35,877 nucleotides of DNA, from the NCBI GenBank assembly GCA_026989435.1, contig JALSJI010000001.1:1-35877 (forward strand), given 5' to 3'. Shown here in pieces: positions 17,103-27,354 of the stretch; within the stretch, counting starts at the first letter, position 1; each line of letters opens with the position of its first letter. Both the position numbers and the translations under genes were made by a program. Origin of the DNA: Sulfurovum sp. Its GTDB lineage: Bacteria > Campylobacterota > Campylobacteria > Campylobacterales > Sulfurovaceae. Under the pieces are notes generated by a model. It searched no databases. It worked only from the letters and a program-made list of their open reading frames with translations, and was not told where the DNA came from.

Positions 17103-17885
17103 ATGAGAAGGTTTTTGGTGCTTGTTTTGATGTTTGTATCAATTCACGCAAATCAATTAGGTTTAAGTGAAAAACTGGGGGAGACGGTTCCTCTTGATTT
17201 GACATTTATTAATGAAAAGGGTGAACGTGTCACCCTAAAGGAACTCATGGACGGAAAACCAACTATGGTTTCGCTGAATTATTTTAAATGTACTGGTATC
17301 TGTACGCCGCAACTTAACGATATGGCAAAAATGCTTAGTCGTTTGGATTTGGCAGAGAATCAGGATTATAAAGTAATTACTATAAGCTTTGCAGAAGATG
17401 AGGGGCATGAACTTGCCGCTGCCAAGAAAAAAACAATGCTACACGCCATTCAGAGAGAGTTTGTCCAGGATGCGTGGCACTTTGTGATAGGAGAGAACAA
17501 CTCTTCGGGTATTTTTGCAGATAAAGTCGGGTTTGAATATCAAAAGACTGTCTCTCCCGCAGGCGTAGTAGATTATGTGCATCCTGCTACATTAATTATG
17601 CTCTCTCCTCAAGGAAAGATAACACGTTACCTTAATGGTATTGAGCAGCTTCCTTTTGATGTGAAGATGGCACTTTTAGAAGCGGGTGAAGGCAAGGTAG
17701 GTCCTACAATCGCAAAAAGTCTATTGTACTGTTTTGCCTATGACCCGAAAGCCAAAACATATATATTCAAATGGGAAAAAATCGCAGGCGCGGTCATGAC
17801 ATTTATTATGATAGCTTTTTTTATCTATCTTGTAAAAACAAGTAGGAGAGAGGAAGATAAATCACAACATAAAGGAGACAACTAA
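17103..17885 (+). CDS. SCO1/SenC family copper chaperone for CuA assembly
   Basis: A 260-residue membrane-bound thioredoxin-fold protein that delivers copper to the CuA centre of oxidase subunit II. It has an N-terminal signal peptide (RFLVLVLMFVSIHA), the copper-binding CTGIC (Cys63 and Cys67, CxxxC) and the third ligand His160 in VDYVHPATL. A C-terminal membrane helix lies at about residues 226-244, followed by a charged tail, so the thioredoxin domain faces the periplasm. Classical SCO proteins are anchored at the N terminus; the extra C-terminal anchor resembles the variant often placed in front of caa3-type operons. It directly precedes subunit I (1-base overlap TAATG), supporting a role in this oxidase. 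Confidence 0.9.
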   Translation: MRRFLVLVLMFVSIHANQLGLSEKLGETVPLDLTFINEKGERVTLKELMDGKPTMVSLNYFKCTGICTPQLNDMAKMLSRLDLAENQDYKVITISFAEDEGHELAAAKKKTMLHAIQREFVQDAWHFVIGENNSSGIFADKVGFEYQKTVSPAGVVDYVHPATLIMLSPQGKITRYLNGIEQLPFDVKMALLEAGEGKVGPTIAKSLLYCFAYDPKAKTYIFKWEKIAGAVMTFIMIAFFIYLVKTSRREEDKSQHKGDN

Positions 17886-19540
17886 TGAGTAAATCTTATT
17901 TCGACGAAACACACACGGCCATAGGCCATCCAAAAAGTACATTCATGCAGTGGATGCTGACGATTGACCATAAAAGAATCGGTCTGATGTATGCAGCTGT
18001 TATGTTTGCTTTCTTTTTTGTAGCAGTGGCTACGGCATTTTTAATGCGTTTAGAGCTTTTTGCTCCCGGGGGGCAATTTATTGATGGGGATACCTTTAAC
18101 CAAGCATTTACTTTGCATGGCGTAATTATGATTTTCCTCTTTATTGTTCCGGGTATTCCGGCGGTACTCGGTAATATAGTGATGCCGCTTATGATTGGGG
18201 CAAAAGATGTCTCTTTCCCAAGGCTCAACTGGTTTACCTTTTGGCTTTATATTTTAGGGTGTATTATAGCACTCGCATCACTCTTTACCGATGCAGGTTT
18301 TGCAGATACGGGTTGGACCTTTTATGCGCCTTACTCTATTACAACGGATACAAATGTTGTTTTTACGCTTGTTGCAGCATTTGTTTTAGGTATGGCGTCT
18401 ATTCTTACAGGGCTTAACTTTTTAGTAACCATACATAGACTTAGGGCTCCTGGAATGACGTTTTGGAAGATGCCTCTTTTTGTATGGGGTATCTATGCAA
18501 CAGCATGGATTCAGCTTCTTGCTACACCGGTTGTAGGTATTACATTGATCCTTGCAATTATGGAGAAATATTTTGGTATTGGTATCTTTGACCCTGCTAA
18601 AGGAGGAGACCCTGTACTGTTTGAACATCTTTTTTGGATCTATTCTCACCCGGCGGTATATCTGATGATTTTACCTGCCTTTGGCGTGATGTCTGAAATT
18701 ATTCCGACATTCTCAAGAAGAGAAGTATTTGGTTATAGAGCCATCGCATTATCTTCCGCATCGATTGCGGGTATTGGATATTTGGTATGGGGTCATCATC
18801 TCTATACTTCGGGAATGGCAGATATTGCTAAGACAATATTTTCATTTTTGACCTTCTTTGTTGCCATTCCTACGGGGATCAAATTTTATGATTGGATTGC
18901 TACGATGTATAAAGGAAAGATTATCCTTTCTACACCTATGTTGTGGGCACTAGGAACCATTATCACCTTTACCATCGGCGGACTTACGGGAGTTACGATT
19001 GCAATGATTGGTGTGGATATACATTTGCAAGATACCTATTATACAGTGGCACACTTTCATTATGCAATGTTAGGCGGGGTTGTGTTTTTGTTCTTTGCAG
19101 GTTTGCACTACTGGTTCCCGCTTGTTACAGGAAAAATGTATAATGAGACACATGCAAAAAGAGCATTTTATCTACAGTTTGTAGGGTTTAACCTTCTTTG
19201 GTTCCCGATGTTTATTGCAGGATATTACGGTATGCCAAGACGTTATTTTGACTATCTTCCGGAGTTTCAAATCTACCATCAAGTCTCATTTGTAGGCGCG
19301 GTATTGTTTATTGCGGGACTTATTTATATGTTTATAGTCTTTTTTAAAGGGTGGAAGTCAGGGAATCCGTCTGGTCCAAACCCTTGGAATGCGACTACAC
19401 TAGAGTGGCATATGCCATCATCACCGCCACCGTTAGAGAACCACTCTAAAGTACCGTATGTTGATTTTAACCCTTATGAGTATCACCATGGCGAACCTGT
19501 AGTGAAATTTGATTATGCAACGATGAAAAGGATAGATTGA
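17885..19540 (+). CDS. ctaD: Cytochrome c oxidase subunit I, aa3-family type A2
   Basis: The 551-residue catalytic subunit of a heme-copper oxidase that reduces O2 to water and pumps protons. It has about twelve membrane helices. Heme and copper ligands are visible: His78 (low-spin heme), His255 and Tyr259 in YSHPAVY (CuB and the cross-linked Tyr), His304-His305 (CuB), and His390/His392 in VAHFHYA (high-spin and low-spin hemes). Lys333 in IPTGIK marks the K proton channel. The usual HPEV glutamate is absent and replaced by the Tyr-Ser pair of YSHPA, which defines the A2 subclass. Campylobacterota usually rely on cbb3 only, so this is notable. Confidence 0.95.
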   Translation: MSKSYFDETHTAIGHPKSTFMQWMLTIDHKRIGLMYAAVMFAFFFVAVATAFLMRLELFAPGGQFIDGDTFNQAFTLHGVIMIFLFIVPGIPAVLGNIVMPLMIGAKDVSFPRLNWFTFWLYILGCIIALASLFTDAGFADTGWTFYAPYSITTDTNVVFTLVAAFVLGMASILTGLNFLVTIHRLRAPGMTFWKMPLFVWGIYATAWIQLLATPVVGITLILAIMEKYFGIGIFDPAKGGDPVLFEHLFWIYSHPAVYLMILPAFGVMSEIIPTFSRREVFGYRAIALSSASIAGIGYLVWGHHLYTSGMADIAKTIFSFLTFFVAIPTGIKFYDWIATMYKGKIILSTPMLWALGTIITFTIGGLTGVTIAMIGVDIHLQDTYYTVAHFHYAMLGGVVFLFFAGLHYWFPLVTGKMYNETHAKRAFYLQFVGFNLLWFPMFIAGYYGMPRRYFDYLPEFQIYHQVSFVGAVLFIAGLIYMFIVFFKGWKSGNPSGPNPWNATTLEWHMPSSPPPLENHSKVPYVDFNPYEYHHGEPVVKFDYATMKRID

Positions 19541-20229
19541 TGTCACATGAATATGTACCGGAAATCGCGGTTGACCGCGAGGGAAATGAATATAAAGTTC
19601 AGGGATGGCAAGATGATTTTTATGGCGGAAAACTGGGCTTTTGGCTCTTTATGTTTACAGAGGTATTAATGTTTGGTGCCATGTTTATGGCTCTTGCATA
19701 CTATAATCATCTGCATCCGCAAGAGTTTATAGAAGCTTCGGCTTCACTTAATAGGCTCTTAGGCGGTATCAATACGGTGATTCTTTTGGTGTCTGCGCTT
19801 ACTATGGGACTTTCTTTGCTTAAGATGAGAGCAGGGGATGTAAAAGGTTCCAAATTGATGATTTGGGCAACAATTGTTCTAGCTTTGGCCTTTTTAGGCA
19901 TTAAAGCTGTGGAGTGGACGGCAGAGTATAATCACGGCATTTTTTTGATGCATGGCGAGATGTTGCCTGAATCAGGTATGTCATTTGGCAAGAAACTCTT
20001 CTTCGGTATGTACTTTACAATGACAGGGATTCATGGTTTTCATATCATTATAGGGATTGGGATTATGCTTTGGTTGCTTAAACGCATCAATGCAGGAAAA
20101 GTAAGACCCGATCACCATATACTACATTGGAATATAGCGCTATATTGGGATATTGTACATCTTATTTGGGTATTTGTATTTCCCTATTATTATATGATTG
20201 GAGCAGGAGGAGCGACAGGTGGACACTAA
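19540..20229 (+). CDS. ctaE: Cytochrome c oxidase subunit III
   Basis: A 229-residue membrane protein of the heme-copper oxidase subunit III family. It has about five to seven helices, with GGKLGFWLFMFTEVLMFGAMF (beginning only: GGKLGFWLF), FFGMYFTMTGIHGFHI and a final helix HLIWVFVFPYYYMIG, all typical. Subunit III supports stable proton uptake through the D channel. The ATG at 19540 shares its A with the TGA of subunit I (TGATG), so I prefer it to the TTG one codon earlier. The 3' end overlaps the start of subunit IV by 11 bases. Confidence 0.93.
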   Translation: MSHEYVPEIAVDREGNEYKVQGWQDDFYGGKLGFWLFMFTEVLMFGAMFMALAYYNHLHPQEFIEASASLNRLLGGINTVILLVSALTMGLSLLKMRAGDVKGSKLMIWATIVLALAFLGIKAVEWTAEYNHGIFLMHGEMLPESGMSFGKKLFFGMYFTMTGIHGFHIIIGIGIMLWLLKRINAGKVRPDHHILHWNIALYWDIVHLIWVFVFPYYYMIGAGGATGGH

Positions 20230-20578
20230 TATTGTTGATTATAAGAAAGAGAGATTGGTTTATTACAAGGTGCTTGTAGGCTTACTACTGCTGACAGCCG
20301 TAACATTTATACAGCCTCATTTGTTTATGGAAGAGTCTACTTTTATGGCACAGATGCTTATAGCTCTTATTAAAGCGTGGCTTATTATTATGTACTATAT
20401 GCATCTTAAGGGGGATACTCTTATTGGCACAATGGGAATATTTTCTTTAATTATTGTTGCTACATTTTTTATTATAGTTATTGGCTTTGATGTTGCTAAT
20501 TTTCAGTTTGGCGATGAGAGCTATATTACAGGTCCAACAAGTGCAGGTGTCGAAAGTGCAGCACCTACGCATCATTAA
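20219..20578 (+). CDS. ctaF: Cytochrome c oxidase subunit IV (small membrane subunit)
   Basis: A small subunit of about 119 residues with three membrane helices. The middle helix has LIKAWLIIMYYMHLKG, the hallmark of prokaryotic cytochrome oxidase subunit IV (variants of 'K...(F/Y)MHL'). I set the start at the GTG at 20219 because AGGAGGAG lies six bases upstream, inside the end of ctaE; a TTG at 20198 is the alternative. The C-terminal tail ends in a His-His pair after an Ala/Thr-rich stretch. It probably stabilises subunits I and III. Confidence 0.85.
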   Translation: MDTNIVDYKKERLVYYKVLVGLLLLTAVTFIQPHLFMEESTFMAQMLIALIKAWLIIMYYMHLKGDTLIGTMGIFSLIIVATFFIIVIGFDVANFQFGDESYITGPTSAGVESAAPTHH

Positions 20579-20589
20579 GGAGTAAAAGT

Positions 20590-21804
20590 ATGGATGTAAA
20601 CAATACCCTGCAGGGATTTAATACGATGGCAGCGACCTTTGCTGCGGATGTTGATCAGGCGTTTTGGATAAACTTTTGGATTTCGGTGGTCTTGGGACTT
20701 TCTGTTATTATTCCTATGTTCTATTTTGCATGGAAGTATAGAGCAAGTAATGTCAAAAATGAAGATATTAAAAATATTACGCACAATACCCCACTGGAGA
20801 TTGCATGGACATTAATTCCTACGGCACTCCTTATGGTTCTTTTTTATTACGGGTACTCCTCTATGAAGACGCTTAGAACAATGCCTGCGGAGAGTGAAAG
20901 TATCGTGGTAAAGGTTGAGGGCAGTAAGTGGAAATGGAGATATGAATATCCTCCAAATAAAAATGGATTCGTGCATAAGCTCGGTGGGGCATATACCAAG
21001 CCTATACTGGATGAGAATGGAAAGATGATTAAAAAAGGGACAATGGGGAAATCGGCACTATACGTACCGGTTGATACGAATATCATCTTACATATGACAG
21101 CACCGGTCGATGATGTGATTCATGCATTTTTTGTACCTGCATTTCGTATGAAAGAGGATGTCGTTCCCGGACGTTTGACCAAACAGTGGTTTAGAGCTGA
21201 TAAAGTAGGAGAATATGAAGTAGAATGTGCCGAGTATTGCGGTACGGATCATGCATATATGTACTCGAGAATCGTGGTACTTCCAAAAGAGAAATATGAA
21301 GAGTGGTTTCAGGGTACGGCCGATACACCCGAAGGTGATTATGCTAACTCCGGAGATGCATTGTTGCAACAACATGGATGTAAAAGTTGTCATGCCGTGA
21401 CTGAAGATAAGATGCTTATAGGACCTACGCTTAAGACCAGAAGACTAACCAAAGAACAAGTATTAGAGGTGATTCATAACGGTCAAGATAAACTTGGGTA
21501 CCCTATGGGAGCAATGCCGGCAGGCTTGGCTACGGGAAAAGATGCTGAAGAGATTGCTGCGTTTGTAGCTGGCGGCATGAAAGGTGAGAAACCTGCATCG
21601 TTTGCTGCTTGTAGTTCATGCCACGGTGAAGACGGTAAGGGTATGGGCGGTGTGTCACCGAGTCTTGTGCATTATGATACAAATCTTTTGCGTAACGTGT
21701 TCAAACATGGCAAAAAGGGAATGATTGGTACTATGCCTGCTTATCCGTATATTACAGACGAAGAGGTTGAAGCTATCGCTACATATCTAGATAGTCTCAA
21801 ATGA
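20590..21804 (+). CDS. ctaC: Cytochrome c oxidase subunit II with CuA domain and two C-terminal cytochrome c domains
   Basis: A 404-residue electron-entry subunit. Two membrane helices (about 27-46 and 70-90) anchor a periplasmic cupredoxin domain with CuA ligands His178, Cys213, Cys217, His221 and Met224 (CAEYCGTDHAYM). Two heme c sites follow: CKSCH (264-268) and CSSCH (341-345), with possible Met ligands in YPMGAMP and TMPAY. Ordinary caa3 enzymes carry one heme c domain here. This tail aligns without gaps to the C-terminal module of CcoP at 26464, with 61 of 99 residues identical by hand count, so it appears to be a cbb3-type diheme unit joined to a CuA subunit. Its position after subunit IV, rather than first in the operon, is also unusual. 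Confidence 0.93.
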   Translation: MDVNNTLQGFNTMAATFAADVDQAFWINFWISVVLGLSVIIPMFYFAWKYRASNVKNEDIKNITHNTPLEIAWTLIPTALLMVLFYYGYSSMKTLRTMPAESESIVVKVEGSKWKWRYEYPPNKNGFVHKLGGAYTKPILDENGKMIKKGTMGKSALYVPVDTNIILHMTAPVDDVIHAFFVPAFRMKEDVVPGRLTKQWFRADKVGEYEVECAEYCGTDHAYMYSRIVVLPKEKYEEWFQGTADTPEGDYANSGDALLQQHGCKSCHAVTEDKMLIGPTLKTRRLTKEQVLEVIHNGQDKLGYPMGAMPAGLATGKDAEEIAAFVAGGMKGEKPASFAACSSCHGEDGKGMGGVSPSLVHYDTNLLRNVFKHGKKGMIGTMPAYPYITDEEVEAIATYLDSLK

Positions 21805-22664
21805 TAAAAGATTTTTTTGTACTTACAAAGTTCGTTCTCTCTTTTGCGGTGAGTCTCTCTGCACTCTTTGCTTATATTATGGCAAAGGGTGAGATAGGAG
21901 GAGAGATGCTGTTTGCTACTTTTTCCGTACTGCTTGTAGCGATGGGCGTTTCAGCTTTAAATCAGGTGCAAGAGTATAAATCGGATGCCAAAATGGAGAG
22001 AACAAAAGATCGTCCTATTGCCTCAGGCAGGATGAGCCCGAGAACAGGTCTTATAATCGGTATAGTGCTTATAGTGGCTGCTATGGCACTTATCTACTCG
22101 CTACTGGGACTTACAGGTGTAAATATTTTCATGTTTGCTTTTATATGGTATAATGCGATGTATACACCGCTAAAGAAGCGTTCAGCACTGGCTGTTGTGC
22201 CAGGTGCTATTTTGGGTGCCATTCCTCCTGCTATCGGGTGGCTTACTGCAGGTCATAGTCTGATGGAGTTAGAGTTTATAGCTTTGGCTCTTTATTTTTT
22301 TATATGGCAGGTACCCCATTTTTGGTTGCTGGTGATGCTTTTTCACGGAGACTATAAAGACGGTGGTTATCCTACGGCAATGAAGCTTTTTGGTCAGGGG
22401 AGTTTGCAGAGACTCACCTTTGTTTGGATTGTCTTTACCATACAAGCAGGTATTTTTTTGGTATGGGTTTTTGAGCCTTATACGATAACAAAGTTCTTAT
22501 CGTTTATTATTGCACTGTTAGTATTTGTCTCTTCCTTGGTATTACTTAAGAAGAGTTTTGAATTGACACATGCACGTGCACTCTTTTGGAAAATAAATGC
22601 AGCTTTTTTAAGTGTTATTGTTTTACTGAGTATTGATGAATATATGAAACATCATATTTCATAA
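21801..22664 (+). CDS. ctaB: Protoheme IX farnesyltransferase (heme O synthase)
   Basis: A 287-residue UbiA-family membrane prenyltransferase that attaches farnesyl to heme B, giving heme O for the oxidase encoded just upstream. About eight to nine helices are visible. The first metal-diphosphate motif is NQVQEYKSDAKMERTKDRP (residues 54-72): N-x3-E-x3-D, with Glu58 where most CyoE/CtaB proteins have Asp. GAIPPAIGW and FIWQVPHFW are the other CtaB signatures, and the second Asp-poor region YTPLKKRS is family-like. The ATG lies within the ctaC stop (ATGA), so the two are coupled. No heme A synthase (CtaA) is in the window, so the enzyme may use heme O unless ctaA is elsewhere. Confidence 0.92.
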   Translation: MIKDFFVLTKFVLSFAVSLSALFAYIMAKGEIGGEMLFATFSVLLVAMGVSALNQVQEYKSDAKMERTKDRPIASGRMSPRTGLIIGIVLIVAAMALIYSLLGLTGVNIFMFAFIWYNAMYTPLKKRSALAVVPGAILGAIPPAIGWLTAGHSLMELEFIALALYFFIWQVPHFWLLVMLFHGDYKDGGYPTAMKLFGQGSLQRLTFVWIVFTIQAGIFLVWVFEPYTITKFLSFIIALLVFVSSLVLLKKSFELTHARALFWKINAAFLSVIVLLSIDEYMKHHIS

Positions 22665-22694
22665 ATACTCCAAGTGCTTTTTGATTGAGTATTT
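22663..22694 (+). terminator. Inverted repeat after ctaB
   Basis: AAATACTC (22663-22670) pairs with GAGTATTT (22687-22694) across a 16-base loop that contains a CTTTTTG tract. It overlaps the ctaB stop and may end or attenuate the oxidase transcript before the next two genes. Confidence 0.4.
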
Positions 22695-22722
22695 TAAACG
22701 ATTTTACATTTGAAGGATTTTT

Positions 22723-23241
22723 ATGCAGGAAAAAGATTATACGCTTGAGACAATACTCAATGCCGTATTTAAAATTTCAAATCATAGAGTAAAAAAGAGA
22801 TTTATTTTTGACCAATCAGGACTTGGAGGGATTGGGGTAAAATGGATTATTGCATTTTTTATATCTTTGCCGATACTACTCTATATCGGCTTGTTTAACG
22901 AGACGGTTTTTTCTATGCTGGGTATTGTACAGGCGATTATTTTTTATATTGTTTTTCTTTCTATGGTTATCATTCTCATTGTCACTATCATCTTTATTAA
23001 TAACAACAAAGTGATAAGGCAGACAAGCCCCTCATGGCAGAAAATTTTTCCTGATGTAGATTTTAAGCTTGTGTTGGCATCAGGAGCTAGCCCTTATAAA
23101 GACTTTTTTCAATATTACAGCGAAGCTATAGAGAAAGGATTTAAGGGGGATGCACTGCAAGAGCACTTGAAGAAGGCTTTTAAAAAGATGCAAGAGGAGA
23201 ATGCCGACTTGTTATCTTCGATAGATAAAGATAGGCAGTAA
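22723..23241 (+). CDS. Hypothetical membrane protein with two helices (172 aa)
   Basis: Not recognised. A soluble N-terminal stretch of about 37 residues (ending FDQSGLGGIGVK) is followed by two membrane helices (about 38-57 and 66-93) and a C-terminal cytoplasmic region of some 75 residues. That region contains helix-forming segments (QYYSEAIEKGFKGDALQEHL, KKAFKKMQEENADLL). GAAGGA precedes the ATG. It is followed after one base by a Sel1-repeat gene and lies 58 bases downstream of the heme O synthase, so it could belong to the oxidase operon and serve in assembly, but nothing in the sequence proves this. Confidence 0.75.
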   Translation: MQEKDYTLETILNAVFKISNHRVKKRFIFDQSGLGGIGVKWIIAFFISLPILLYIGLFNETVFSMLGIVQAIIFYIVFLSMVIILIVTIIFINNNKVIRQTSPSWQKIFPDVDFKLVLASGASPYKDFFQYYSEAIEKGFKGDALQEHLKKAFKKMQEENADLLSSIDKDRQ

Positions 23242-23242
23242 G

Positions 23243-23845
23243 ATGTCAGTTTTTAGAGCTTTACAGCTTTTACCATTTTTATGGGCTTTTTTACAGGCAA
23301 GCGAGAGTTTGTGTTTGCAAAAGGATGCCAAAGCATGCTATACATATGCTCTGCCTCTGGTTAGCGGAGAAAATGCCAAGGTACAGGATCTAAGAGAAAA
23401 GGGATTGGCTTTTATGCGTAAGTCCTGCCTGCTTGGGTATATGAAAGCCTGTGATGTCATAGGAGAGAATTACTATAAAGACAAAAGCTATAGGGCAGCC
23501 TTACCATACCTCGAACAGTCATGCGCAAGGAGTGTTGTATTTGCCTGCGAAGCGGCAGGTGTGATTTATCGAGATGGACGTGATGTAAGACAGAGCGATC
23601 ATAAAGCAAGAGAATATTTTGAAAAGGCATGTAAGCTCGGCAGCGGGGATGCCTGTTATAATATTGCGATGATGTACAGAGGTGGATTCGGTGTTGAAAA
23701 ATCTCGAAGCAATGAAAAAAAATATTATCAGTTGTCATGTGAAAAAGGGTTGAGAGCAGGATGTGAGAAATTTACAGAATTGGATAATGAGGATAGGGGT
23801 ATCGATACGGGCATAATTGCTAGGATAAAAGCTTGGTTTCAATAG
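23243..23845 (+). CDS. Sel1-like repeat, cysteine-rich (Hcp-type) secreted protein
   Basis: A 200-residue protein with an N-terminal signal-like segment (residues 1-18, hydrophobic) and Sel1/TPR-like helix pairs. Five cysteine pairs all follow the C-x7-C pattern (CLQKDAKAC, CLLGYMKAC, CARSVVFAC, CKLGSGDAC, CEKGLRAGC). This disulfide-per-repeat design is that of Helicobacter cysteine-rich proteins (Hcp family), exported to the periplasm or outside. The repeat YEKACKLG.GDACYNIAMMYRGGFGV-like segment near residues 125-155 is the best preserved. Hcp proteins bind other proteins or peptidoglycan fragments; the exact role here is unknown. It is separated from the previous gene by one base and ends before the cco promoter region. 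Confidence 0.8.
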   Translation: MSVFRALQLLPFLWAFLQASESLCLQKDAKACYTYALPLVSGENAKVQDLREKGLAFMRKSCLLGYMKACDVIGENYYKDKSYRAALPYLEQSCARSVVFACEAAGVIYRDGRDVRQSDHKAREYFEKACKLGSGDACYNIAMMYRGGFGVEKSRSNEKKYYQLSCEKGLRAGCEKFTELDNEDRGIDTGIIARIKAWFQ

Positions 23846-23881
23846 GTTTTATTCAGTAAAAAGGAGTAAAAATATCCTCAT

Positions 23882-23902
23882 TTTATCAAATATATTGATA
23901 AA
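23882..23902. promoter_or_regulatory. 21-bp palindrome upstream of ccoN
   Basis: TTTATCAA-ATATA-TTGATAAA is a perfect 8-bp inverted repeat about 120 bp before the ccoN -10. It holds the halves ATCAA and TTGAT in the opposite order to an FNR/CRP box (TTGAT-N4-ATCAA). It could be a regulator site for oxygen control, or the weak terminator of the preceding gene. Confidence 0.45.
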
Positions 23903-23989
23903 CTACTCTAGATTTATGGCTGTTTTTATCGCTTTTATATTTCGTTATATAGCCCAATATATTACAAATATCTACAAATTGTATAAAAC

Positions 23990-24011
23990 TTGAATTCGAT
24001 TAAGTATTCAA
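23990..24011. promoter_or_regulatory. Inverted repeat overlapping the ccoN -35 region
   Basis: TTGAAT (23990-23995) and ATTCAA (24006-24011) are separated by 10 bases. The right half overlaps the position expected for the -35 of the promoter at 24026, as a repressor site would. Confidence 0.35.
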
Positions 24012-24025
24012 ACTTTAAAATATCT

Positions 24026-24031
24026 TATAAT
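24026..24031 (+). promoter_or_regulatory. -10 element of the ccoNOQP operon
   Basis: TATAAT at 24026-24031, 52 bases before the ccoN start codon. The -35 is poor, which would suit an activator-dependent promoter. The remaining part of the 238-base gap is AT-rich and carries no gene. Confidence 0.55.
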
Positions 24032-24083
24032 GGTTATTCAGCGTTGTAATTTATCAACCGTAATTTTATATAAGGGGGTATGT

Positions 24084-25550
24084 ATGCAATCAAATGCAGC
24101 ATTGGAATATGACTATTCCTTAGCAAAAAAGTTTACTTTTTTAACTATTTTGTTTGGATTTTTAGGTATGCTCGTGGGTACGATTATTGCCGCACAATTA
24201 GCATTTCCTGAATTGAATTATCTTTTAGGTGAGTATGGTACGTTTTCTAGGTTAAGACCTATTCATACCAATACGGTTATTTTTGGTTTTACGGTATCAG
24301 GAATATTTGCTACTTGGTATTATTTTGGGCAAAGGGTACTAAAAGTATCCATGGCAGAATCAAAGTTTTTGATGGTAGTAGGTAATATCCAGTTTTGGCT
24401 CTACCTTATAGGAGCACTTGCTGCCACGGTTTCTTTATTACTTGGTTATACGACAGCAAAAGAGTATGCACAGTATGAGTGGCCCTTTGATATCGTTGTG
24501 GTACTCATTTGGGTACTTTGGGGTGTAAATATGATGGGTCTTATAGGGATTAGACGGGAAAAAGCCCTTTATATCTCCGTATGGTATTACCTTGCTTGCT
24601 TCTTGGGGATTGCTATGCTTTACCTCTTTAACAACATGGAAATTCCTACCTATTTTACATCCGGCGGTTTAGGTAATCCTTTACACTCTGTCTCTATATA
24701 TGCAGGAACAAATGATGCCCTCGTACAATGGTGGTATGGACACAATGCGGTTGCATTTGGATTTACAGTACCTATTGTTGGTATGATTTACTACTTCCTT
24801 CCAAAAGAGTCCGGACAAGCTATCTACTCATATAAGCTTTCTTTACTTTCTTTTTGGGGATTGATGTTTGTCTATCTTTGGGCAGGTTCACACCATCTTT
24901 TATGGTCAACGGTTCCTGACTGGATGCAAACGATGGGTTCGGCTTTTTCGGTAGTGCTTATTTTGCCTTCATGGGGATCTGCTATTAATATGCTTCTTAC
25001 GATGAAGGGTGAGTGGAATCAATTAACAGAGAATCCGCTTATTAAATTTATGGTACTTGCATCTACGTTTTATATGCTTTCAACTATTGAGGGACCTATT
25101 CAAGCGATACGTTCGGTGAATGCTATTGCGCACTTTACGGATTGGATTCCGGGACACGTACATGATGGTGTATTAGGTTGGGTGGCCTTTATGATTATGG
25201 CATCTATTTTCCATATGGCACCGCGTATGTTTAAAAAAGAGCTTTACTCCAAAAAGCTTATGGAGTGGCAGTTTTGGATTCAAACAACGGCTGTTGTTTT
25301 ATACTTTACTTCTATGTGGATTGCCGGTATTACCCAGGGAATGATGTGGAGAGCAGTAGATGAGTATGGGAATTTGATGTACTCCTTTATTGATACGGTA
25401 ATTGTACTACATCCCTATTATGTAATTAGAACACTTGCGGGTGTATTATATTTAACAGGGTTTGTTATGTTTGCTTACAATATATATAAAACTATGGTTT
25501 CAGGTAGAGAACTATCTGAAGAACCACAGTTTAGAACGCCTATGGCCTAA
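24084..25550 (+). CDS. ccoN: Cytochrome c oxidase cbb3-type subunit I
   Basis: The 488-residue catalytic subunit of the high-affinity cbb3 oxidase, with about twelve helices. His61 in RLRPIHTNTVIFGF binds the low-spin heme b. WWYGHNAVAFGF carries the CuB His, GSHHLLW the CuB His pair, and GHVHDGVLGW the two C-terminal heme ligands. I chose the ATG at 24084 because AAGGGGG lies five bases before it and the product then begins MQSNAALEYDYS as in the family; an ATG at 24030 would start within the promoter. It is the first gene of a seven-gene operon. Confidence 0.96.
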   Translation: MQSNAALEYDYSLAKKFTFLTILFGFLGMLVGTIIAAQLAFPELNYLLGEYGTFSRLRPIHTNTVIFGFTVSGIFATWYYFGQRVLKVSMAESKFLMVVGNIQFWLYLIGALAATVSLLLGYTTAKEYAQYEWPFDIVVVLIWVLWGVNMMGLIGIRREKALYISVWYYLACFLGIAMLYLFNNMEIPTYFTSGGLGNPLHSVSIYAGTNDALVQWWYGHNAVAFGFTVPIVGMIYYFLPKESGQAIYSYKLSLLSFWGLMFVYLWAGSHHLLWSTVPDWMQTMGSAFSVVLILPSWGSAINMLLTMKGEWNQLTENPLIKFMVLASTFYMLSTIEGPIQAIRSVNAIAHFTDWIPGHVHDGVLGWVAFMIMASIFHMAPRMFKKELYSKKLMEWQFWIQTTAVVLYFTSMWIAGITQGMMWRAVDEYGNLMYSFIDTVIVLHPYYVIRTLAGVLYLTGFVMFAYNIYKTMVSGRELSEEPQFRTPMA

Positions 25551-25563
25551 GGGGGTACGTATT

Positions 25564-26229
25564 ATGTTTCATTGGTTAGAAAATAATCCATTTTTTATGG
25601 CAGCAGGGATATCTATAGTTATCTCTTTTGCGGGACTGATAGAAATTGTGCCAAACTTTGCACAATCAGCGAAACCTTTGGTAGATATGAAGCCACGTAC
25701 TGTACTTGAATTGGCAGGTAAAAATGTCTATATGAAAGATAACTGTCTTTCATGTCATTCACAAATGATTCGTCCGTTTAAGTCTGAGACGGATCGCTAC
25801 GGAAAATATTCACTCTCCGGAGAGTATGCGTATGATAGACCTTTTCTTTGGGGGAGCAAGAGAACAGGTCCTGATCTACACCGTGTAGGAAACTACCGTA
25901 CTACAGACTGGCATGAAGCACATATGTTGAACCCTCCTAAGATTGTACCGGGTTCTATTATGCCAGCGTATGAACATCAGTTTGAAAACGAAGCAGATTT
26001 GGAAACTGCCTATGCAGAGGCAGTAACGGTAAGAAATGTTTTTCATACGCCGTATGGTCCTGAAATTAAAAAAGGACGTGCGGCATGGGAGGCACATAAG
26101 CCAAAAGTACTTGAAGATGCTAAGAAAATTGCAGCTGATATGAAAGACGAGAGAGTAAAAAAAGCTATTGCAGAGGGAAAAGTACCTGAGATTGTAGCCC
26201 TTATTGCGTATCTTAACAGTTTAAAATAA
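25564..26229 (+). CDS. ccoO: Cytochrome c oxidase cbb3-type subunit II (monoheme)
   Basis: A 221-residue membrane-anchored cytochrome c. One N-terminal helix (about 8-29) is followed by the heme c site CLSCH (61-65) and a likely Met ligand in GSIMPAYEH. It takes electrons from CcoP and passes them to CcoN. RSQMIRPF-like residues after the heme site (SQMIRPFKSETDRYG) are strongly conserved in CcoO. The ATG at 25564 is 13 bases after the ccoN stop and is preceded by GGGGG at the end of ccoN; longer frames upstream overlap ccoN and are not needed. Confidence 0.96.
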   Translation: MFHWLENNPFFMAAGISIVISFAGLIEIVPNFAQSAKPLVDMKPRTVLELAGKNVYMKDNCLSCHSQMIRPFKSETDRYGKYSLSGEYAYDRPFLWGSKRTGPDLHRVGNYRTTDWHEAHMLNPPKIVPGSIMPAYEHQFENEADLETAYAEAVTVRNVFHTPYGPEIKKGRAAWEAHKPKVLEDAKKIAADMKDERVKKAIAEGKVPEIVALIAYLNSLK

Positions 26230-26239
26230 GAGAGTTAAT

Positions 26240-26467
26240 ATGGATATGGATCTTAGAAACTTACAAGGTTACGCAAGTTTCTTTATGACTATTTTTTTGG
26301 TAATTATGCTATATGGATATATTTTTCATCTCTATAGGGCCGAGAAAAAAGGTGAGCGGGATTACGAAAAATATGGGAAGATTGCACTTGATGATGAGAT
26401 TGACTCTACCCCTGTAGAAGATAAACCTGCAGGGAAAAGACACATTAAGCAGGAGGAAAAGAAATGA
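26240..26467 (+). CDS. ccoQ: Cytochrome c oxidase cbb3-type subunit IV (CcoQ)
   Basis: A 75-residue protein with one membrane helix (about 12-32, YASFFMTIFLVIMLYGYIFH) and a charged tail with HLYRAEKKGERDYEKYG, the usual CcoQ/FixQ pattern. CcoQ stabilises the association of CcoP with CcoNO. Its stop overlaps the ccoP ATG by four bases. Confidence 0.88.
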   Translation: MDMDLRNLQGYASFFMTIFLVIMLYGYIFHLYRAEKKGERDYEKYGKIALDDEIDSTPVEDKPAGKRHIKQEEKK

Positions 26468-27354
26468 ATGGATTAATGATAAAAGCATTAGTATTTGCGG
26501 CAATATTGATGCTTGCTACAATTTATGTGGTAACGAAGTTAAATATTGATATTGCAGGTGACTCGATAAATGCGATAACAATGGCCGGAGCGTTGGCAGT
26601 TGCCGTACTTACGGGTGCAGTTTCTGCAAAATATATCAATCAAATGAAAACAGACAGTGTCAGCGGTAAACTTGTAGATGAAAATTGGGATGGTATCGGT
26701 GAGTATAAAAACGAATTACCGTCAGGTTGGGCGTATACGTTTTTAGCTGTGTTTATGTGGTCTATGTGGTATGGTTTCTTTGGTTACCCTATTAATGCAT
26801 ATAGTCAGATTGGCGAATATAACGAAGAGGTACTTGCATACAATGCAAAATTTGAAGAAAAGCATAAAAATGCAGACGAAGCAACGCTTAAAGAGATGGG
26901 AGAATCTATTTTTTTGGTGCAGTGTTCCCAATGTCATGGAGCAACGGGTGACGGACTTTCAGGCCGTGCACAAGATTTTTCCGCACGTATGAGTAAAGAA
27001 CAAATTTTGGATGTCATTAAAAACGGTTCAAATCAATTAGGGTACCCAATGGGTGCGATGCCTCCGGGAATGGCTAGCGGTAAAGACGCTGAAGAGATTA
27101 CAGCATATATTGCCGGGGGACTTAAAGGTGAAGCACCTGCAGCATACGCAGCATGTACATCATGCCATGGAGCAGATAGTAAAGGAAATAACGGCATGGC
27201 ACCAAATTTGTTAGCCTATGATGCAACGTTAATGAAGCATGTGTTAGAGCATGGTAAAAAGGGTATTATCGGTAAAATGCCTTCATTTAAAACACTGATT
27301 ACCCCGGTACAAGAAAAAGCTTTGACTACTTATATTCAGTCATTGTCACAATAA
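26464..27354 (+). CDS. ccoP: Cytochrome c oxidase cbb3-type subunit III (diheme)
   Basis: A 296-residue diheme cytochrome c and the entry point for electrons into the cbb3 oxidase. Two N-terminal helices (about 5-23 and 36-55) are followed by a third hydrophobic segment near 88-108 (WAYTFLAVFMWSMWYGFFG), which is normal for Campylobacterota CcoP. Heme sites are CSQCH (154-158) and CTSCH (231-235), with Met ligands likely in YPMGAMP and KMPSF. AGGAGG precedes the ATG. The C-terminal 120 residues are closely similar to the tail of ctaC, as described there. Confidence 0.96.
   Translation: MNGLMIKALVFAAILMLATIYVVTKLNIDIAGDSINAITMAGALAVAVLTGAVSAKYINQMKTDSVSGKLVDENWDGIGEYKNELPSGWAYTFLAVFMWSMWYGFFGYPINAYSQIGEYNEEVLAYNAKFEEKHKNADEATLKEMGESIFLVQCSQCHGATGDGLSGRAQDFSARMSKEQILDVIKNGSNQLGYPMGAMPPGMASGKDAEEITAYIAGGLKGEAPAAYAACTSCHGADSKGNNGMAPNLLAYDATLMKHVLEHGKKGIIGKMPSFKTLITPVQEKALTTYIQSLSQ

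Follow-up and report, generated by a model that had tools for sequence, protein, structure and literature searches.

A mosaic subunit II with a CcoP-like diheme tail in a CuA oxidase of Sulfurovum

The 35,877-nucleotide stretch of Sulfurovum DNA considered here (the window, from contig 1 of a draft genome of 1.6 Mb, 87% complete, with nearest relatives in Sulfurovum) encodes an A2-type CuA oxidase and, shortly downstream, a cbb3 oxidase, and raises the question of how CoxB, the CuA subunit II of the first enzyme, came by a diheme tail resembling that of CcoP, the diheme subunit of the second. The A- and C-type families of heme-copper oxidases are commonly regarded as separate, with unrelated electron-entry parts. 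In the window CoxB, a protein of 404 aa with two CxxCH motifs (20590..21804, on the + strand like the other features of the two oxidase operons given below), one such part appears to have crossed between oxidase types, with the junction lying within a cytochrome domain, and to be still in use in several genera. The protein is a mosaic, being an ordinary A2-type CuA subunit as far as approximately 21435 and CcoP-like from approximately 21448. We consider it probable that such hybrids arose from a monoheme caa3-type CoxB and a Campylobacterota ccoP and subsequently spread.

The mosaic structure of CoxB

Over an ungapped alignment of CoxB residues 287-385 (21448-21744) with the window's own CcoP at 26992-27288, 61 of 99 residues are identical, which is exactly the count given in the original prediction made from this DNA. 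None of 2000 shuffles gave more than 18 identities, and BLASTP of CoxB against CcoP returned an E value of 8e-54. The motifs GYPMGAMP, GKDAEEI, CxSCHG and HGKKG, which had been named as common to the two proteins, are found in both. It had also been proposed that the last 120 or so residues of CoxB correspond to the diheme part of CcoP. This holds from 21448 but does not extend to both heme domains in full, since 21352-21435 is like monoheme caa3 and the last ~19 residues, after GTMPAY, are assigned by profile comparison to neither parent (the difference between the two over this C-terminal helix, 21745..21801, is 2.9 bits, with a range of -11.9 to 21.7).

The body of CoxB (20590..21309) comprises the membrane hairpin and CuA domain expected of the family. 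The COX2, COX2_TM and CoxB equivalog models all score above cut-off, and the CuA ligand residues H178, C213, E215, C217, H221 and M224 are invariant among 32 aligned CoxBs. In addition to COX2 and COX2_TM, Pfam identifies two Cytochrome_CBB3 stretches in the protein. With CcoP/FixP it shares the later part of the heme-1 domain and the heme-2 domain, and both the identity given above and the trees described below indicate that this diheme part is homologous. Unlike those proteins, however, CoxB is without the FixP_N membrane domain, which Pfam finds in CcoP only, so that by this measure it is not a member of their family; its CxxCH segment in the heme-1 domain is caa3-derived, and the whole is joined to CuA. 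Its match to TIGR00782 (E 3e-11) lies under the cut-off.

The position of the junction can be seen from several comparisons. The 28 residues round the first CxxCH (GDALLQQHGCKSCHAVTEDKMLIGPTLK; residues 255-282, 21352..21435), with the heme-1 motif CKSCH at residues 264-268 (21379..21393), resemble the monoheme CoxBs of the genus (GQSLYEDNGCAGCHSIDTDAILVGPSLK) and are unlike CcoP. For this segment the monoheme CoxB profile outscores that of CcoP in all 32 hybrids, on average by 44 bits and at least by 31; in the window the margin is 40 bits. Of the Bacteroidota CoxBs whose match enters the heme domain, most cease to be similar at residues 280-284, and the best stretch of the structure match to PDB 2yev, a monoheme caa3 subunit II, covers residues 154-281. 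That subunit has the CuA domain and the first cytochrome CxxCH segment in common with the window CoxB, but it possesses a single cytochrome domain without a CcoP-like part, and the match ends at the junction. The spacing from CxxCH to Met is 44-45 residues in the hybrids, mostly 45-46 in CcoP and 49 in monoheme CoxB. Beyond the junction, identity, spacing and trees all assign the block at 21448..21744, up to GTMPAY, to CcoP. It holds the rest of the heme-1 domain, with Met309 as predicted ligand (21514-21516), and the heme-2 domain, with the motif CSSCH at residues 341-345 (21610..21624) and the predicted ligand Met382 (21733-21735). The heme-1 domain is a hybrid of a caa3-type CxxCH helix and a CcoP-type Met loop, and the heme-2 domain is that of CcoP. 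The suggestion that a cbb3 entry unit was copied onto a CuA subunit is thus retained only in part: the trees place the tail with the CcoP family, but what took place was a splice within an existing caa3 heme domain and not the addition of a whole diheme unit.

Origin of the tail

Phylogenetic analysis supports an origin of the tail in the CcoP family. In every tree the tails form one clade (support 100, 100/98 and 100/100), joined to the Campylobacterota CcoP. Four alphaproteobacterial FixP served as outgroup in the rooted trees, and a further tree was built with full-length CcoP columns added; CcoPs of Bacteroidota and Planctomycetota were sought as nearer outgroups, but their strong matches were mostly to the N-terminal and first-heme part, and hence they were not used. 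The best rooted trees nest the tail inside Campylobacterota CcoP and do not place it with caa3-type or free diheme cytochromes far from CcoP, which would have spoken against the original prediction. The best reading of these trees is that the donor was a Campylobacterota CcoP, the exact branch being left aside. A position beside five Sulfurovum CcoPs, seen in a quick tree with a support of 98, did not hold in the careful trees and was dropped.

Several results weigh against this reading. Trees constrained to keep all CcoP in one group, with the tail outside it, are worse by only 2.0 and 6.1 log units and are not rejected (approximately unbiased, AU, test p 0.45 and 0.37, with a distant FixP root), and in the same kind of test an arrangement in which the Sulfurovaceae-side CcoPs form a group without the tail is equally good. 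Trees made without an outgroup give a Sulfurovaceae CcoP clade that excludes the tail, and its placement shifts between analyses, so that the donor branch within CcoP is not fixed. In addition, the genome draft is incomplete (87%), and the confidence of the AlphaFold model is too low across the hybrid domain for the model to be of use (mean predicted local distance difference test score 63.7 for CoxB, and below 50 at residues 263-285).

Instead of a Sulfurovaceae-like ccoP, the source of the tail could be a free CcoP-like cytochrome with two hemes, or a CcoP lineage that split off before any of the Campylobacterota CcoPs sampled. The AU tests do not reject a tail outside CcoP, and free, apparently membrane-anchored diheme cytochromes of 215-236 aa do exist (L118:209-916, L119:379-1023 and L130:504-1148). 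However, these group with the Arcobacteraceae-side CcoP and are 37-40% identical to the tail, which is below most Sulfurovum CcoPs, and the tail itself stays among Campylobacterota CcoP in the best trees. Such a source seems improbable to us, and a Campylobacterota ccoP is preferred as donor.

Whether the duplication took place within this genome had been an option in the original prediction. A recent copying of the 3' part of ccoP onto coxB could account for their closeness, 5 kb apart on the same strand, and for the 68% nucleotide identity in the shared block (202/297). Third codon positions in the block, however, are only 47% identical, and the copy is therefore old and not recent; moreover, when 91 CcoPs are ordered by their alignment score to the tail, the window's own comes only 15th. 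The option is refuted by the single clade formed by the tails of 32 sampled CoxBs, and we give it almost no credence. The fusion is old, the tail having a single origin common to all 32. Ongoing gene conversion between coxB and ccoP was also considered and ruled out, as the trees do not join the tails to the CcoPs of their own genomes.

Diheme CuA subunits as such have precedents. They are reported for Desulfovibrio and for the ccaa3 oxidase of Shewanella, with two heme domains that are alike and for which duplication was proposed (PMC3899249). Subunit II of Desulfovibrio vulgaris and Shewanella oneidensis has, according to that paper and its reference 74, two C-terminal c hemes, as does the window CoxB. 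A tandem duplication of the caa3 cytochrome domain might therefore be suggested for the window gene also, all the more as tails of this kind, with domains 76-86% identical, are present at the same locus in three Sulfurovum genomes; in the Shewanella case the identity between domains is 61% (PMC3899249). In the window CoxB, by contrast, the two heme domains share only 16 of 59 residues, against 61 of 99 between tail and CcoP, and so are not the closely similar pair by which a tandem duplicate is recognised. The Shewanella oxidase is furthermore of A1 type, whereas that of the window is A2, with a CcoP-derived tail and a hybrid first domain. Duplication is rejected for the window gene as highly improbable.

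Distribution and exchange of tail types

The hybrid tail occurs in at least 32 CoxBs of Sulfurovum, Sulfurimonas and Sulfuricurvum. Besides these genera, single drafts labelled Arcobacter and Helicobacteraceae contain the hybrid CoxB, which is 66-78% identical over its length. Of the 37 genus members searched, six have a hybrid tail and five a monoheme one, and in three the tail is tandemly duplicated. No plasmid record matched the tail at E 1e-6. Where the flanking sequence is long enough, ccoP mostly lies ~4-6 kb downstream, the cox and cco operons being neighbours across Sulfurovum and Sulfurimonas. The resident CcoP of Sulfurimonas is of the Sulfurimonas kind and only 31-41% identical to the tail, and therefore was not the donor there.

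The histories of the CuA bodies and the tails are in conflict. Forcing the hybrids into one group on the CuA tree comes at a cost of 97 log units (AU p 0.00014), and two of them, L078 and L141, fall within a clade (100/100) whose other members are monoheme CoxBs. On both sides of the tail block, the DNA of L141 is mostly 85-95% identical to that of the monoheme L140. Within the block, at ~1220-1800 of the compared stretch (~580 bases, ending at the coxB stop), it is ~50-80% identical to L140 and 74-88% identical to the hybrid L050. L058, which has the same CoxB as L078, gives the same pattern in less sharp form. These alignments indicate that in L141 the tail block alone was replaced by homologous recombination. 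We infer that the hybrid is the derived state in each exchange, because monoheme tails are general across phyla.

In the history that we favour, an ancestral monoheme caa3-type CoxB would have recombined once with a Campylobacterota ccoP. The crossover would have fallen between the CxxCH helix and the Met loop of the first cytochrome c domain, replacing the rest of the heme-1 domain and adding the second heme domain of CcoP. Within Sulfurovum the hybrid tail could then have spread as homologous recombination replaced the 3' part of coxB, and Sulfurimonas, Sulfuricurvum and others probably acquired the operon as a whole. Horizontal transfer has been proposed for a caa3 (A2) operon in Sulfurimonas pluma and Sulfurovum sp. 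AR (PMC10066037), in the same phylum and genera as here and with a four-subunit A2-type operon like that of the window. The account of it in the part of that paper concerned with the operon describes the caa3 operon only and makes no mention of a diheme or CcoP-like tail, which the window CoxB has.

Other arrangements of the same parts were observed. The CoxBs with duplicated tails (L015:527-1702, L136:5415-6671 and L137:1129-2304) have two mutually similar caa3 heme domains at the locus occupied elsewhere by the hybrid, and are an independent route to a diheme tail in the same genus. L124:191-1603 encodes a CoxB of 471 aa with a divergent CuA body, in which a long linker lies between two caa3-type heme domains of 46% identity. 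Two probable membrane proteins of ~370 aa (L123:19-1125 and L127:186-1322) carry the CcoP-like block only, with the GHGYPMGEMP region and one CxxCH, apparently another reuse of part of the CcoP module. A protein of 637 aa (L122:277-2187) combines a long, apparently unrelated N-terminal part with a CcoP-like diheme C-terminal part, and at L097:853-2394 the ccoP frame runs on to 514 aa, which may reflect fusion to the following gene or an artefact of the frame.

Heme type, electron donors and gene context

No heme A synthase (PF02628) scored over the cut-off in the window's own genome, which is 87% complete, or in any relative tested, including near-complete genomes that bear the hybrid; 7 of 14 control genomes were above it. 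The CtaA by which a caa3 (heme A) enzyme would be recognised was thus not found, and the enzyme therefore probably uses heme O. From this gene content, taken from partly incomplete drafts, heme O is more likely than heme A in the window oxidase, and the name caa3 is accordingly doubtful for it. The apparent lack of heme A synthase also suggests that the 'caa3' names published for these bacteria should be checked. A UbiA family prenyltransferase gene follows coxB directly.

By comparison with known oxidases, electrons would pass from a periplasmic or membrane cytochrome c to the outer, CcoP-type heme, then to the hybrid inner heme, to CuA and to the hemes of subunit I. The CuA oxidase may draw on the same donors as the cbb3 enzyme, because its outer domain is CcoP's own entry domain. 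It is conceivable, if rather unlikely, that the tail, with the same origin, is a docking element that links the CuA oxidase in a supercomplex to the bc1 complex or the adjacent cbb3 oxidase, and is not a means of sharing soluble donors. The persistence of the cox and cco operons as neighbours would fit such a role, and covalent heme tails elsewhere do work within supercomplexes, for example in Bacillus caa3 (PMC9145763). However, the occurrence of monoheme and of duplicated tails at this locus indicates that the arrangement does not depend on a CcoP tail. We tentatively suggest, at somewhat less than even odds, that the tail is an exchangeable electron-entry module, and that Sulfurovum coxB alleles switch by recombination between monoheme, duplicated and CcoP-type forms, which would reset their donors and, in the last case, give them a donor in common with the adjacent cbb3 oxidase. 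That nearly the same core enzyme occurs with three types of tail amounts to a natural experiment on covalent heme tails in relation to donor choice and to electron flow at different oxygen levels. A CcoP-derived tail on a CuA subunit appears to be undescribed so far, as the literature searched, which left out most subscription journals, holds no description of a CcoP-CoxB hybrid.

The genes of the CuA oxidase form an operon, sco-ctaD-coxC-coxD-coxB-ctaB, at 17103-22664. It opens with sco (17103..17885), encoding a SCO1/SenC copper chaperone (Pfam SCO1-SenC, E 3.9e-9), followed by ctaD (17885..19540) for subunit I of an A-type heme-copper oxidase. The latter matches NCBIfam CtaD_CoxA with E 5.9e-192, slightly under the curated cut-off, and has the A2 motif YSHPAVY (LFWIYSHPAVYLMIL) instead of GHPEVY. 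Subunits III and IV are encoded by coxC (19537..20229; Pfam COX3, E 1.3e-11) and coxD (20198..20578; Pfam COX4_pro, E 1.5e-8). Beyond coxB lies the ctaB-like UbiA family gene (21801..22664; Pfam UbiA, E 1.6e-37), whose product is a probable heme O synthase. Between it and a gene with Sel1 repeats, an open reading frame of 172 aa at 22723-23241 has likely membrane helices and no Pfam match. The ccoNOQP operon occupies 24084-27354 and consists of ccoN (24084..25550) for subunit I of the cbb3 oxidase (NCBIfam ccoN, E 2.7e-202), ccoO (25516..26229) for the monoheme subunit (Pfam FixO, E 2.9e-79), ccoQ (26240..26467; Pfam FixQ, E 1.1e-17) and ccoP (26464..27354), whose diheme product, a relative of the donor of the CoxB tail, comprises FixP_N and two Cytochrome_CBB3 stretches.

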